Positions 55,601 through 62,600 of a stretch of DNA of 64,000 nt are shown here, piece after piece (positions within the stretch are counted from its first letter, which is position 1; every line of letters begins with the position of its first letter). This DNA comes from Streptomyces capillispiralis (lineage in GTDB: Bacteria > Actinomycetota > Actinomycetes > Streptomycetales > Streptomycetaceae). Under the pieces are notes generated by a model. The model was given only the letters and a program-made list of their open reading frames with translations, searched no databases and was not told the origin of the DNA. The position numbers were made by a program, and so were the translations under genes. The stretch lies in assembly GCF_007829875.1 (NCBI RefSeq), contig NZ_VIWV01000001.1, forward strand, positions 7,266,001 through 7,330,000, written 5' to 3'.

Positions 55601-58600
55601 CGGGCCGTCACGCCCGCGCCGCGCCGTCCGCAACCCCTGGCCGCCGCAGCCGCCGCAGCCGTCGCACCGGACCCGGCCGCCGCACCGGACCCAGCCTTCC
55701 CACGGGAGTCGGCCGTGGCGCGCGACCGGCGGCACGCCGCCCTGGCCGCCACGGTCCGCGAGGTCGTCGCGCACGTCCTGAAGTCCCCCGTGGACGAGCT
55801 CGACGACGACAGCGGCTTCCACGACCTGGGCCTGGACTCCATCCGCCTCACCCAGCTCGCCCACCGGCTCGCCGACCGCCTCGGCGCGCCGCTCCAGCCG
55901 ACCGACCTGTACGACCACCCGTCCGTACGGCGCCTGACCGACCACCTGGTGGACGAGCCGGGCGTCCGGCTGCCCGCGTCCGCCGAGCCCGCGGCGGCTT
56001 TGGCGGGCCCGCGGCCCGCCGCCCCCGAAGCCGGCCGCACCGGCTCCGGCCCGGACGCCATAGCCGTCATCGGCATGAGCGGCATCTTCCCGGGCTGCCG
56101 CGACGTGGACGCCTTCTGGACCGCGCTCGCCGACGGCAAGGACCTCGTCCGCGAGCTGCCGCCCGCCCGCTTCGGCGCGGCGCGGAACGGGGACGAGGGC
56201 GCGCCGCGGCCCTACCGGTGGATGGGCAGCATCGACTGGGCGGACGAATTCGACGCCGCCTTCTTCGAGATCGCCCCCAAGGAGGCGCGCGCCCTCGACC
56301 CGCGCCAGCGCCACCTCCTCCAGGAGTGCTGGAAGGCCCTGGAGGACGCCGCCCTCGGCGCGCAGGAGCTGGAGGGCCTCAGGGTCGGCGTGTTCGTCGG
56401 CGTGGAGCAGGGCGACTACCAGCTCCTCGACGGGGCGGGCGGCAACCTCACCTCGAACCACGACGGCGTGCTCGCCGCGCGCCTGTCGTACTTCCTCGAC
56501 CTGAAGGGGCCCGTCCTCGCGGTCAACACCTCCTGCTCGTCGGGCCTGGTGGCCCTGCACCAGGCACGCGCGAGCCTGCTCCAGGGGGAGTGCGACATCG
56601 CCGTCGTCGCCGCGGCGAACTTCGTCCTGACCCCGCAGGCCCTCGCGGCCATGAGCGACGCCGGCATGCTGTCGGCCGCCGGCCGGTGCGCCACGTTCGA
56701 CCAGGACGCCGACGGGATGGTGCCCGGCGAGGCGGTCACGGCCCTGGTACTGCGCCCGCTGGCGGACGCGGAGACCGCGGGCGACCCCGTGCACAGCGTG
56801 ATCACGGCCAGCGGCCTCAACCACGACGGCCGGACGAACGGCATCACCGCGCCCTCGGGCGACGCCCAGCGCGAACTCCTGGAGTCCGTGTACGAGCGCG
56901 GCGGCATCGACCCGGCGGACCTCGGCTACGTCGTCACCCACGGCACCGGCACGAAGCTCGGCGACCCCGTCGAGGTCGGCGCCCTGCGCGCGGCCTTCGC
57001 CCGGTACACCGACGAGCGCGGGTTCTGCGCCCTCACCTCGACCAAGCCCAACGTCGGCCACACCTTCGCCGCCTCCGGCCTGGTCGGCCTGGTCTGTCTC
57101 TCCGAGGCGCTGCGCCACCGGGCCATCCCGCCCAGCCTGCACTGCGAGCGCGACAACGAGTACATCGACTGGAGCGCGAGCCCCTTCTACGTCAACAAGG
57201 CCACGAAGGAGTGGCCCGCCCCCCGGCACGGCCACCGCACCGGCGCCGTCAGCGCGTTCGGCATGAGCGGCACCAACGCCCACGTGGTCGTACGGGAGTA
57301 CACCGGCCGGCCGGACACGGCCGGCCCCGCCCGGCCCGCCCACCTCCTCCCGGTCTCCGCTAAGACGGACACCGCCCTGGAGGGGATCGTCGACGCCCTG
57401 CTCGACCGGATCACGAGCGGTGCCCTGACGGACACGGACCTGCCCCGGCTCAGCGCCACACTCCTCACCGGCCGTCACCACTTCCGGCACCGGTGCGCGC
57501 TGGTGGTGGCCTCCCTCGACGAGGCCGCCGCGCTCTGGCGCGCCTGGCGCAGCTCACGGACCGCCGCGCCCGGCGCGTGCTTCGAAGGCGTCGTGCCGCG
57601 CGGCTTCACCGCGCGGGCCCAGGACGCCGACCGGCTCCTGGCCGCGGCCGACCGCGCCCGGGACACCGGCCTCGACCCGGCCGCGCGGCGGGAGGCCCTC
57701 GTCGAGGTCGCGCACGGCTACGTCGCGGGCCACACCGTGCCGACCGCCGTCGCCCGGCCCGACGGCCGCCGCGTCACGCGCCTGAGGCTGCCCGTGTACC
57801 CGTTCGCGCGCAGCCGCCACTGGGTGCGCGCCGAGCAGCAGGCTCCGGCCCCCGCGGCCGTGACCACGGTGGAACAGAGCCCGGCCCCCACTGCCCCGGC
57901 CTCCCCGCCGGCGCCCCGCAAGCCCGTGGTCCTGCGGGACCTGGCGGACGTACCCCACCGGATCGACACCGCGGACGCCGCACCGGCCGCGGCGAAGCCG
58001 CAGGTCTCCCTGGCGCCCCTGACGCCCGCGTCGCCCCGCCCGGAACCGGAGCCCGAGGCCCCGTCGGTGTGCCCCGTCACGCTCGAGCACGACGTCCTGG
58101 ACGACCTCAAGGCGGCGGCCGACCTGGACTTCGGCGGGATGGTCGCGACCCTGAACCGCACCGGCGTGATGGTCGAGCGGCTGATCCCGTACTCCGAGGA
58201 GTTCGCGGAGTACGCGGGGAACAGCGGCGGCGAGGCTCTCGACCTGGGCTGCGCGTACGGCGTGGCGAGCATCGCCGCGCTCGAACGAGGGGCGCGGGTG
58301 GTGGCGCTCGACATGGAGCAGAAGCACCTGGACATCCTGGGACAGCGCGTCAACGACGAGGCCGGGCAGCGCCTGTCCCTGCGACGGGGCATGCTGCCCG
58401 ACGTCGACTTCGAGGCGGGACGGTTCACGGCCGTGCACGCCAGCCGCGTGATGCACTTCCTCGCCCCGGACGACTTCCGGCTCACCCTGCGCAAGATGTA
58501 CGACTGGCTCGCGCCGGGCGGCAAGGTCTTCCTCAGCTCGGACTCGCCGTACTTCGGCTACTGGGCGTCCAGGGCCGCCGACTACGAGGCGCGCAGGGAC

Positions 58601-59683: not shown

Positions 59684-62600
59684 TGCCCGTGCCACGCACC
59701 GGGAACCACTCGAGCAGCGACCCGCATCGGTACCTGCGCGACACGCTGGCCGTCGTCCTCGGAACCGAGGTGGCTCCGAGCCGTGACGACGTGTCCCTCG
59801 TGGAGCTGGGTCTCGATTCGTTCGGCTGCGTCCAGTGGCTGCACGAGGTCAACCGGACCCTCGGGCTTTCCCTCACGGTGGCCCAGGTCTGCGGTCACCC
59901 CACGTTCCGTACGCTGTCCGCCCTGATCGAGGGCGCCATGGGAGAACAGATGAGTGCCACACCCCCTGGGTCCTCGGCCGCCCGCGGTACGTCCGCGCCG
60001 GGGCGCCCGGCCATCGCCGCGCACCTCCGCGAGAGCCTCGCGGAGGAGCTGGAGCTCGTCGCGGCGGACATCGACGACGAGGCGCCCTTCGTGGAGCTGG
60101 GCCTCGACTCGATCACCGGTGTCACCTGGACCCGGAAGCTGAACACGCACTTCCAGCTGTCACTCTCCGCGACGCAGGTCTACAGCCACCCGACGGTCGA
60201 CGACCTCGCGGACCACCTCGCCGAGCTGCTCGGTGGCGGGGGAGAGGCGCGCCCGGCCGCCGTGGCCGCGCCCGCGCCGGAGCCCGGGCCCGCGCCGGGG
60301 GCCGGGGGATCCGCCCCCGTGCCTCCGGCCGCCGCCGAGTCCGCACACGCCGCCGAGTCCGCGCTCGCCGCCTGGCTGCGGGCCAGCCTCGCCGGGGAGC
60401 TTGAGCTCGACGCGGCCGAACTGGACGACGAGGCGCCCTTCGTGGAGCTGGGGCTCGACTCGATCTCCGGCGTCACCTGGACCAGGACCCTCAACACGCA
60501 CCTTCGGCTCTCCCTGTCCGCCACCACGGTCTACGGGCACCCGACCATCAGCGACCTGGCGCGCTATCTGACGCGGGAGCACGGCGCCGCAGCCCCCGAC
60601 GCGGGGGCGGCCGCACGGCCCGGGTCCGCACCCGAGGCCGCCGCGACGCGGGTGCCCGAGTCCGCCGCCGAGCCCGAGCCCGTCCCGAGGGCCGAGCCGG
60701 CCGAGTCCCAGTCCGCCGCCGAGCCCGAGTCCGTCCTGATGTCCGAGCCCGCCGACTCCGCTGCCGAGCCCGAGTCCGGGTCCGTCCCGAAGCCCGAGCT
60801 CGCCGCCGAGCCCGAGTCCGGGCCCGTGTCGAAGTCCGAGTCCGCCGGGGCCGAGTCCGAGCCCGCCGGGGTGGCGGAGCCCGAGGCCGTCGCCGGGGCC
60901 GTGCGCGTTCCCGGCCTCGTGGACATCGCCGTCATCGGCATCTCCGGCGCGTTCCCCCGGGCGGAGAACGTCGACGCGTTCTGGCGGAACATCCTCGAAG
61001 GCCGCGACTGCATATCCGAGGTGCCCCCCTCGCGCTGGCCCGTGGAGACGTTCTACGACGAGCGGCCCGGCGTACCGGGGAAGTCCTCCAGCAAGTGGAT
61101 GGGCGTCCTGGAGCACGCGGACCGGTTCGACCCGCTCTTCTTCTCCATCTCGCCCGGCGAGGCCGCCGCCATGGACCCCCAGCAGCGCCTCCTGCTCCAG
61201 GAGAGCTGGGCCTGCGTCGAAGAGGCGGGCTACGATCCCGACGACCTCTCCGGCACCCGGTGCGGCGTCTTCATCGGCTGCTCCGTGAACGGCTACGGCG
61301 CCACGGCCGACGCGGCCGGGCTGAGCGCGCACCAGAACCTCGGCACCAACAGCGCGATCCTCGCCAGCCGTGTCTCCTACGCCCTGAACCTCAAGGGCCC
61401 CTGCCTCTCCATCGACACCTCGTGCTCGTCGTCGCTCGTGGCCCTCGCGCAAGCCTGCGACAGCCTCTGTCTCGGCGACAGCGACACCGCGCTCGCGGGC
61501 GGCGTCTGGGTCATCCCGGGCCCCGGCGTGCACGTGGCCATGAGCCAGCTGCGGGCCCTGTCGCCCGACGGCCGCTGCTACGCCTTCGACGAGCGCGCCA
61601 ACGGCTTCGTGCCGGCCGAGGGCGTCGGCGTCCTGCTCCTGAAGCGGCTCGCGGACGCGCAGGCGGACGGCGACCGGATCCACGCCGTCATCAAGGGCTG
61701 GGGCGTGAACCAGGACGGCAGGTCCAACGGCATCACGGCCCCGAACGCGGAGGCGCAGGCCCGGCTCCAGAAGCACGTGTACGACAAGTTCGGCATCGAC
61801 CCCGGTGACATCGAGCTCGTCGAGGCGCACGGCACCGGCACCGCACTCGGCGACCCCGTCGAGATCGACGGCCTCGTCGACAGCTTCACCGCGCGCACCG
61901 ACCGCCGCGGCCACTGCGCCGTCGGCTCGGTGAAGAGCAACATCGGCCACACCGCGTGCGCCGCCGGGGTGGCCGGCGTCCTCAAGGCCACCCTCGCCCT
62001 GGAGCACGCGACGCTCCCGCCGACCGCCCAGTACGAGCGCCTCAACCAGCACATCGACCTGGACGGCACGCCCTTCTACGTCAACACCCGGGCGCGCGAG
62101 TGGCGGCGCCGGAACCGGCCGCGCCTGGCCGCCGTCAGCTCCTTCGGTTACAGCGGCACGAACGCCCACGTCGTCCTGGCCGAGGCCCCCGAGGCCACCG
62201 CGGTGGCGGCGCCGGAAGGCGCCGACGGCTCCCGCCTGATCGTCCTCTCCGCCCGCACGGCCGGGCAGCTCCGGGACCGGGCGCGGCAGCTCGCCGAGCA
62301 CCTCGACGCACACCCCGGCCTGAGCCCGCGCGATCTCAGCCACACCCTGGGACGCGGCCGCAAGCACTTCCGCCACCGCCTCGCGTTCGTCGTGGACACC
62401 ACGGCGGAGGCCGCGGCGCTGCTGCGCGCCTGGCTGGAGAACGGCAGCGCGCCGTCCGCGTACACCGGTGACCACAAGCCCCGGCGTGCCGCGCGGCCGG
62501 ACGTGCGCGAGGCCCGGGAAGTGACGGACCCGGCCCGGCTGCGGACGCTCGCGCGGGAGTACGCCCAGGGCGCGGCCGTCGCGTTCGAGCTGCTGTTCGC

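Follow-up and report, generated by a model that had tools for sequence, protein, structure and literature searches.

An in-line methyltransferase-hydrolase pair in the beta-branching module of a hangtaimycin-type trans-AT PKS/NRPS from Streptomyces capillispiralis: a candidate device for lactone formation on the assembly line

A 64,000-nucleotide stretch of the Streptomyces capillispiralis genome (assembly GCF_007829875.1, contig NZ_VIWV01000001.1, positions 7,266,001 to 7,330,000 of the forward strand; hereafter the window) reaches into a trans-acyltransferase (trans-AT) polyketide synthase/nonribosomal peptide synthetase (PKS/NRPS) cluster, in which a class I S-adenosylmethionine (SAM)-dependent methyltransferase (MT) is followed directly by an alpha/beta-hydrolase (ABH). 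This pair is real, conserved, and in-line, and it lies in a known type of cluster, that of hangtaimycin (htm). On a slight balance of probability, the MT-ABH pair, located in module 10 of a trans-AT PKS/NRPS of the hangtaimycin type, acts as an on-line lactonization device. The more specific proposal is given an even chance: namely, that the in-line O-methyltransferase activates the beta-branch carboxylate and that transesterification by the in-line serine hydrolase then closes a six-membered ring, the chain staying on its acyl carrier protein (ACP) throughout, which would make the pair a SAM-powered lactone-forming didomain.

In a single protein, the ketosynthase (KS) of module 10, KS8, is followed by the MT, the ABH, and the end of gene B, with no ACP downstream of KS8 in that protein; gene C starts with three ACPs and continues with a KS and a ketoreductase (KR). 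This order had been described in an earlier, sequence-only reading of the window, and it was borne out by the reading frame, Pfam matches, and motifs. All three gene C ACPs carry the Trp that marks beta-branching acceptors, at +6 from the phosphopantetheine Ser (LGLDSFGCVQW, LGLDSITGVTW, and LGLDSISGVTW). The features of this region, in window coordinates, are:

52370..53633 (+, bounds approximate): KS of htm-type module 9, which accepts the chain coming off the second A-PCP (motif scan)
54866..55430 (+, approximate): KR of module 9 (motif scan, translation)
55720..55930 (+, approximate): ACP of module 9 (LGLDSI at 55826)
about 56054..57290 (+): KS8, in the beta-branching module, module 10 in htm numbering (NTSCSS 56525, HGTGT 56936, KPNVGH 57044)
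58076..58840 (+): class I SAM MT domain (Pfam Methyltransf_25, E 4.9e-15; alignment)
58238-58261 (+): MT motif I, LDLGCAYG (alignment)
58310-58312 (+): MT acidic residue of strand 2 (alignment)
58868..59614 (+): ABH domain (Pfam Abhydrolase_6, E 4.1e-24; AlphaFold2 model; fold matches)
59681..59683 (+): TGA stop of gene B (HtmA2-like), overlapping the gene C ATG at 59683
59716..59937 (+, approximate): acceptor ACP 1 of gene C (HtmA3-like), with Trp flag (translation)
60004..60228 (+, approximate): acceptor ACP 2 of gene C, with Trp flag (translation)
60358..60582 (+, approximate): acceptor ACP 3 of gene C, with Trp flag (translation)

The arrangement of KS-MT-ABH followed by three Trp-marked ACPs is not a chance one and is conserved in Streptomyces. 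The didomain was found in 5 of the 392 genomes of a genus sample, its own included, and a seed-pattern scan of genome contigs located it in nine named contigs (nine loci, all Streptomyces), for a total of 12 distinct genomes when two sampled genomes (G119 and G168), whose contigs match L014 and L016 in length, are counted once. Identity to the window sequence among the 10 aligned didomains is 72-90% over both domains and 61-89% over the hydrolase. Three Trp-ACPs follow the MT-ABH pair at all 10 loci (the window and L011-L019), and a KS precedes it at nine; at L014, a draft contig of S. altiplanensis, the open frame ahead of MT-ABH spans only 143 aa, probably reflecting an assembly or sequencing break. 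In a phylum sample of 396 genomes, the didomain was detected in no other genome at E <= 1e-25, apart from a partial match in G415 limited to the first part of the hydrolase (95 positions), and the MT alone, at E <= 1e-35, was detected in its own genome only. A plasmid collection yielded 41 matching records, none covering 80% of the didomain, with each of the 15 matches listed covering one domain; a scan of viral contigs did not find the didomain. Coverage of other phyla came from the plasmids and the single seed-pattern scan of genome contigs, so these searches do not show that the didomain is absent elsewhere. Among the 41 plasmid records, 35 were from Piscirickettsia; in two of these plasmids (L040 and L041), the match is to a small gene for an MT with 30-34% identity to the module-10 MT, and in L041 this gene has thioesterase and SDR genes nearby.

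Mean ratios of nonsynonymous to synonymous variation (pN/pS) over 36 pairs of nine sequences (the set without L016) were 0.22 for the MT and 0.48 for the ABH, compared with control means of 0.35 for KS8 and 0.56 for the KR of module 9 in eight of these loci (without L014 and L016). Both the MT and the ABH therefore look to be kept under constraint like that on the neighboring KS and KR, the constraint on the ABH being no looser than on the KR and looser than on KS8.

The content of the trans-acting cassette points to the likely substrate. Downstream of gene E, the cluster encodes a donor ACP, a KS-like decarboxylase, a hydroxymethylglutaryl synthase (HMGS), and an enoyl-CoA hydratase (ECH) fused to an enoyl-reductase-like part. 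The ECH is of the ECH1 type (PksH match at 2.2e-77; NCBIfam PRK07112 at 320 bits, cut-off 250). No ECH2 was found in the cluster, which holds one of the 13 ECH matches in the genome (Pfam, E 0.001, complete list); the nearest other match lies ~299 kb from gene A, and 9 of the 12 noncluster ECHs were compared, with general enoyl-CoA hydratase models as their best matches. In all nine other genomes searched (9 of 11, without L014 and L016), an HMGS 83-95% identical to that of the cluster stands beside one ECH, the list of ECHs in these genomes running down to about 6e-29, which makes the absence of ECH2 there less sure. In one of them, a second HMGS (45% identical; G351:C2:491309-493987) lies on a smaller contig with two ECH matches alongside; it probably belongs to another beta-branching cluster, and it indicates that an ECH pair is detectable by this search. 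The fusion partner of ECH1 (G000:C1, about 7359738-7362074, beyond the window) is enoyl-reductase-like, with nitronate-monooxygenase and FabD-helical-insert matches. The cassette thus has the content expected for a carboxylated branch (HMGS, donor ACP, decarboxylating KS, and ECH1, without a detectable ECH2 in the cluster), suggesting that the beta-branch should retain its carboxylate and supporting the earlier assignment of the pair to a beta-branching module with a carboxylate. To our knowledge, there is no in-line MT-ABH pair in the bryostatin or leinamycin systems. In these, beta-branching without a trans-acting ECH2 likewise combines an HMGS cassette lacking ECH2 with an expected carboxylated branch (PMC12560621).

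The MT has an intact motif I and falls under the cut-off of every NCBIfam model listed, including that of BioC (17.4 bits versus 184.95), of which it is not a member; nor is it close to the C-MT and N-MT domains of the same cluster. The closest matches found come from two rhizobial lobatamide-type synthases, encoded on plasmids of A. vitis VAR03-1 (L037) and R. lusitanum (L038), whose MT domains are 48-49% identical to it. These synthases are laid out as adenylation, KS, oxygenase-like domain (by eye), and ACP, followed by KS-MT-ACP. Thus, they share the placement of the MT with module 10 but differ from it in lacking an ABH, in having QGTA for HGTGT in that KS, and in positioning the MT after an oxygenase-like domain. 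Allorhizobium and Rhizobium lobatamide-type clusters are named in PMC7318616, which describes oxygenase, DH, and MT domains as installing the oxime of necroxime; together, this description and the layout suggest that the rhizobial MTs act in oxime O-methylation. A grouping with PKS O-methyltransferases had been taken beforehand as an argument against a protecting role, and the nearest relative found, a lobatamide-type PKS MT (48%), goes part of the way toward such a grouping, although methylation of a carboxyl oxygen is still compatible with it. The ACPs after the rhizobial MTs also carry Trp at +6 (LGLTSAMAVSW and LGLNSAIGVSW), and a search that detects HMGS, ECH1, and the donor ACP in the S. 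capillispiralis cluster matched none of them across about 97 kb of the A. vitis record and 74 kb of the R. lusitanum record; therefore, the Trp flag may also occur outside beta-branching.

In the ABH, the canonical acid after strand 7 is missing, as had been noted in the sequence-only reading, which named Ser7163, Asp7187, and His7297 as a possible triad. The corresponding codons are:

59144..59146 (+): nucleophile Ser (Ser7163), GHSLGG, after strand 5 (alignment, model)
59216..59218 (+): acid Asp (Asp7187), GVDTLH, after strand 6 (alignment, model)
59465..59488 (+): NSTSWMPT, at the site of the missing canonical acid after strand 7 (alignment, model)
59546..59548 (+): His (His7297), GHF, after strand 8 (alignment, model)

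The three residues and NSTSWMPT are invariant in 10 of 10 aligned didomains, and the HG oxyanion motif is conserved alongside the triad, although invariance alone is weak evidence for a triad, with 106 of the 249 ABH columns being invariant anyway. An AlphaFold2 model of the ABH alone (pLDDT 82.6, pTM 0.86) places the same residues, as Ser97, Asp121, and His231, after strands 5, 6, and 8, respectively. The Asp lies 24 residues past the nucleophile, as it does in PDB 3kxp, the sequence-nearest solved structure, where an Asp at this spacing presumably serves as the triad acid. It is also present in all four stand-alone Streptomyces relatives of the ABH (40-45% identity over about 140-180 residues). 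The ABH thus carries a complete set of candidate triad residues, the predicted acid being the Asp after strand 6. It is not a member of the BioH family (42 bits versus a cut-off of 206.95). The best 50 fold matches of the ABH model listed are esterases, peroxidases, lactonases, strigolactone receptors, and similar proteins (VIA, Foldseek), with the VIA matches at Z 25-27 and rmsd 2.7-4.1 over 237-263 aligned residues. An earlier AlphaFold model of the didomain, built with 10 close sequences, was poor (pLDDT 63), and its fold ranking (esterases, DcsB, StnA) was not used.

Read beyond the window, with modules counted from motifs and Pfam matches, the cluster contains five multidomain genes. Gene A has four KSs; gene B encodes C-A-PCP (condensation, adenylation, and peptidyl carrier domains), KS-DH-KR-MT, ACPs, a further KS and ACP, C-A-PCP, KS-KR-ACP, and KS-MT-ABH; gene C encodes three ACPs, KS-KR-ACP-ACP, KS-DH-ACP, KS-KR-ACP, and KS-ACP; gene D encodes C-A-PCP-C-A(FkbM)-PCP; and gene E encodes C-A-PCP-C-A-MT-PCP-C. 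A tandem AT (two Acyl_transf_1 stretches) and a P450 (p450) are found by Pfam downstream of the cassette. In the third KS of gene A, Asn replaces the first His (DTACSS, VNGSGS, KPNIGH), with a DH motif next and a second KS with a KR (by eye) before it, which agrees with the internal dehydrating bimodule of htm, whose second KS has Cys-Asn-His. The module count places a C-MT in module 6, an FkbM domain in module 16, and an N-MT in module 18, with MT-ABH in module 10. The last KS of gene C, beyond the window, has DGMCASS and AANGS instead of the usual motifs and looks nonelongating. Upstream of the cluster, window positions 13891-15285 (+) encode a protein resembling a tyrosine recombinase/integrase by eye.

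By domain layout, rather than by sequence identity to htm, this cluster matches that of hangtaimycin from S. spectabilis closely (PMC8456789, PMC10624959). The hangtaimycin synthase is described as having five multidomain enzymes, a duplicate AT, and a third KS with Cys-Asn-His (PMC8456789), as well as MTs in modules 6 (C-MT), 16 (FkbM), and 18 (N-MT) (PMC10624959); its cluster also has a P450, and its product contains an "unsaturated hexalactone," i.e., an unsaturated six-membered lactone (PMC10624959). The difference is that the main texts count three MT domains: neither the module-10 MT nor the word "hydrolase" was found in the main text of PMC8456789 or PMC10624959. The module-10 MT is therefore a fourth one beside the three counted for htm. 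Since the three methylation sites of hangtaimycin (C-45, O-21, and N-12) are assigned to the three other MT domains (PMC10624959), the methyl group added in module 10 should be transient.

The proposed lactone follows from the content of modules 9 and 10. Because module 9 has a KR and no DH motif was found between its KS and the next by motif scan, its hydroxyl should remain, two carbons beyond the branch carbon. Closure onto this hydroxyl would give a ring composed of the branch CH, the branch carboxyl carbon, the ring oxygen, and three chain carbons, that is, a six-membered unsaturated lactone. By eye, the pocket residues of the second A domain resemble the Gly-code signature. In hangtaimycin, the P450 acts at C-42, and H30 couples to H29 (15 Hz) and H31 (10.2 Hz) (PMC8456789/PMC10624959). 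These couplings suggest that the polyene carbonyl should be C-28; if C-42 is taken as the Gly alpha carbon, the 15 positions of the span 28-42 can be accounted for by 12 carbons of the chain (from Gly and five extensions) together with three atoms of the lactone, such that the published atom numbering appears consistent with a lactone derived from the branch.

In the proposed mechanism, KS8 would produce a beta-ketoacyl intermediate carried by the three Trp-marked ACPs, after which the donor ACP, decarboxylating KS, HMGS, and PksH-type ECH1 would add the acetate branch and dehydrate it, the carboxylate being kept for want of ECH2. The MT would then methylate the branch carboxylate, activating it as a transient methyl ester, and the ABH Ser would take the acyl group and hand it to the module 9 hydroxyl, releasing methanol and yielding the six-membered unsaturated lactone. 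The chain thioester would be left intact, so that elongation could continue from gene C. To a serine hydrolase, a methyl ester offers a good acyl donor, whereas a free carboxylate donates poorly; this chemistry, the absence of the additional methyl from those named for hangtaimycin, and the position of the ABH next to the MT and before the same ACPs together argue that the MT activates the acid and that the ABH closes the ring. The computed basis of the lactonization proposal consists of the domains, their order and conservation, the triad residues, the cassette content, and the layout match to htm, from which the MT substrate, acyl transfer, timing, and product were inferred. As far as literature searches show, SAM-powered carboxyl activation in a PKS module would be the first of its kind; one SAM-dependent carboxyl activation, ahead of amide formation, is cited in PMC11427300.

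Several points weigh against lactonization by the pair. The fold matches describe an ordinary esterase-like fold that does not discriminate between lactonization and hydrolysis, and the ABH might equally hydrolyze; moreover, it is less conserved than the MT. The closest relative of the MT (48%) comes from the oxime-installing region of lobatamide-type synthases, so homology does not imply specificity for a carboxyl group. That HtmA2 of S. spectabilis carries the MT-ABH pair is suggested by layout, and the origin of the lactone in the branch carboxylate is derived from domain content and published atom numbering. A GNAT loading domain is reported for htm; at E 1e-5, Pfam recognized none within residues 1-520 of gene A, although by eye this stretch looks GNAT-like. 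Deletion of FkbM gave no demethyl product, the O-21 methyl having been attributed to FkbM by elimination (PMC10624959). Finally, for cystargolide, the same initial assumption (that the MT activates and the hydrolase lactonizes) proved wrong, as cyclization to the strained beta-lactone is unfavorable and the methyl merely masked another carboxylate (PMC11427300). A six-membered ring is free of the strain obstacle met there.

An alternative is that the MT masks the branch carboxylate as a protecting group and the ABH frees the acid, the lactone then closing spontaneously or later. This logic, put forward in the sequence-only reading by analogy with BioC/BioH of biotin synthesis, identified a fitting substrate in the branch carboxylate, and the MT and ABH are of the same broad enzyme classes as published pairs. 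Like BioC and BioH, they would act as an MT and an alpha/beta-hydrolase on an acyl-ACP carboxylate, but BioC and BioH are free proteins and both domains score below the respective family cut-offs (for the MT, 17 bits versus 185). Cryptic carboxyl methylation is reportedly also part of streptonigrin biosynthesis. A methyl esterase, StnA, is described for that pathway (PMC5225493), and masking with later unmasking has been published for a trans-AT PKS, making the general logic not new: in aurantinin biosynthesis, Art28 and Art9 form and later remove a carboxyl methyl ester on an ACP (PMC8302727). Art28 and Art9 differ from the present pair, as described there, in being separate proteins that act on a malonyl starter, with the ester kept to the last step and with neither a beta branch nor a shared module. 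The CysG-CysF-CysE system of cystargolide and belactosin likewise has a carboxyl MT (CysG) and a hydrolase (CysE) around a lactone, although its lactonization is attributed to an ATP-dependent enzyme (PMC11427300). The biotin, aurantinin, and cystargolide syntheses all place other steps between masking and unmasking (PMC8302727, PMC11427300), whereas at the loci examined here both domains stand in one module before the same ACPs, where an ester would be cleaved before the chain could be passed on. Housed in the MT's own module, the hydrolase is badly positioned for lasting protection, so that closing the lactone on the line agrees better with the published product and activation is the better fit for this pair; a protecting role is considered unlikely. 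As a further possible relative, the strobilurin PKS, with a hydrolase part and a C-terminal C-MT (PMC6158276), was rejected as fungal and iterative, its hydrolase lacking Asp and His.

It is also conceivable, with a lower probability than protection, that the ABH alone lactonizes or isomerizes the chain without a methyl ester and that the MT is retained as a noncatalytic acyl-binding or scaffold domain. The MT homologs in lobatamide-type KS-MT-ACP modules, whose KS is without the first active-site His, indicate that this type of MT is at home in-line; yet motif I is intact, the MT is under tighter constraint than the ABH, KS8, or the KR, and the ABH would have to work from a free carboxylate, the poor donor. 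Slightly less probable again is an O-methyl kept in the product, which would then be a methylated hangtaimycin analog, the ABH performing proofreading or ring closure. The nearest MT relative found, from an oxime-installing region (PMC7318616), would suit such a role, but the module layout matches htm closely and the three methyls of hangtaimycin are given to other domains (PMC10624959). Hydrolytic proofreading, in which the ABH would clear stalled acyl chains from the three ACPs, accounts for a hydrolase beside carrier domains in a module type that may stall; it is very improbable, given that it leaves the MT and the conserved pairing in a beta-branch module unexplained and that a stand-alone thioesterase able to clear chains is also encoded (22240-22998).

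If on-line lactonization by the module-10 pair is correct, it would account for the hangtaimycin lactone and for a fourth, apparently uncounted MT in the synthase, and it would show mid-chain ring closure on an assembly line without loss of the product. It would also add a further case in which SAM activates rather than decorates a carboxylate. KS-MT-ABH at a protein end, together with three Trp-ACPs and an HMGS cassette without ECH2, would then provide a sequence signature for finding similar lactones.

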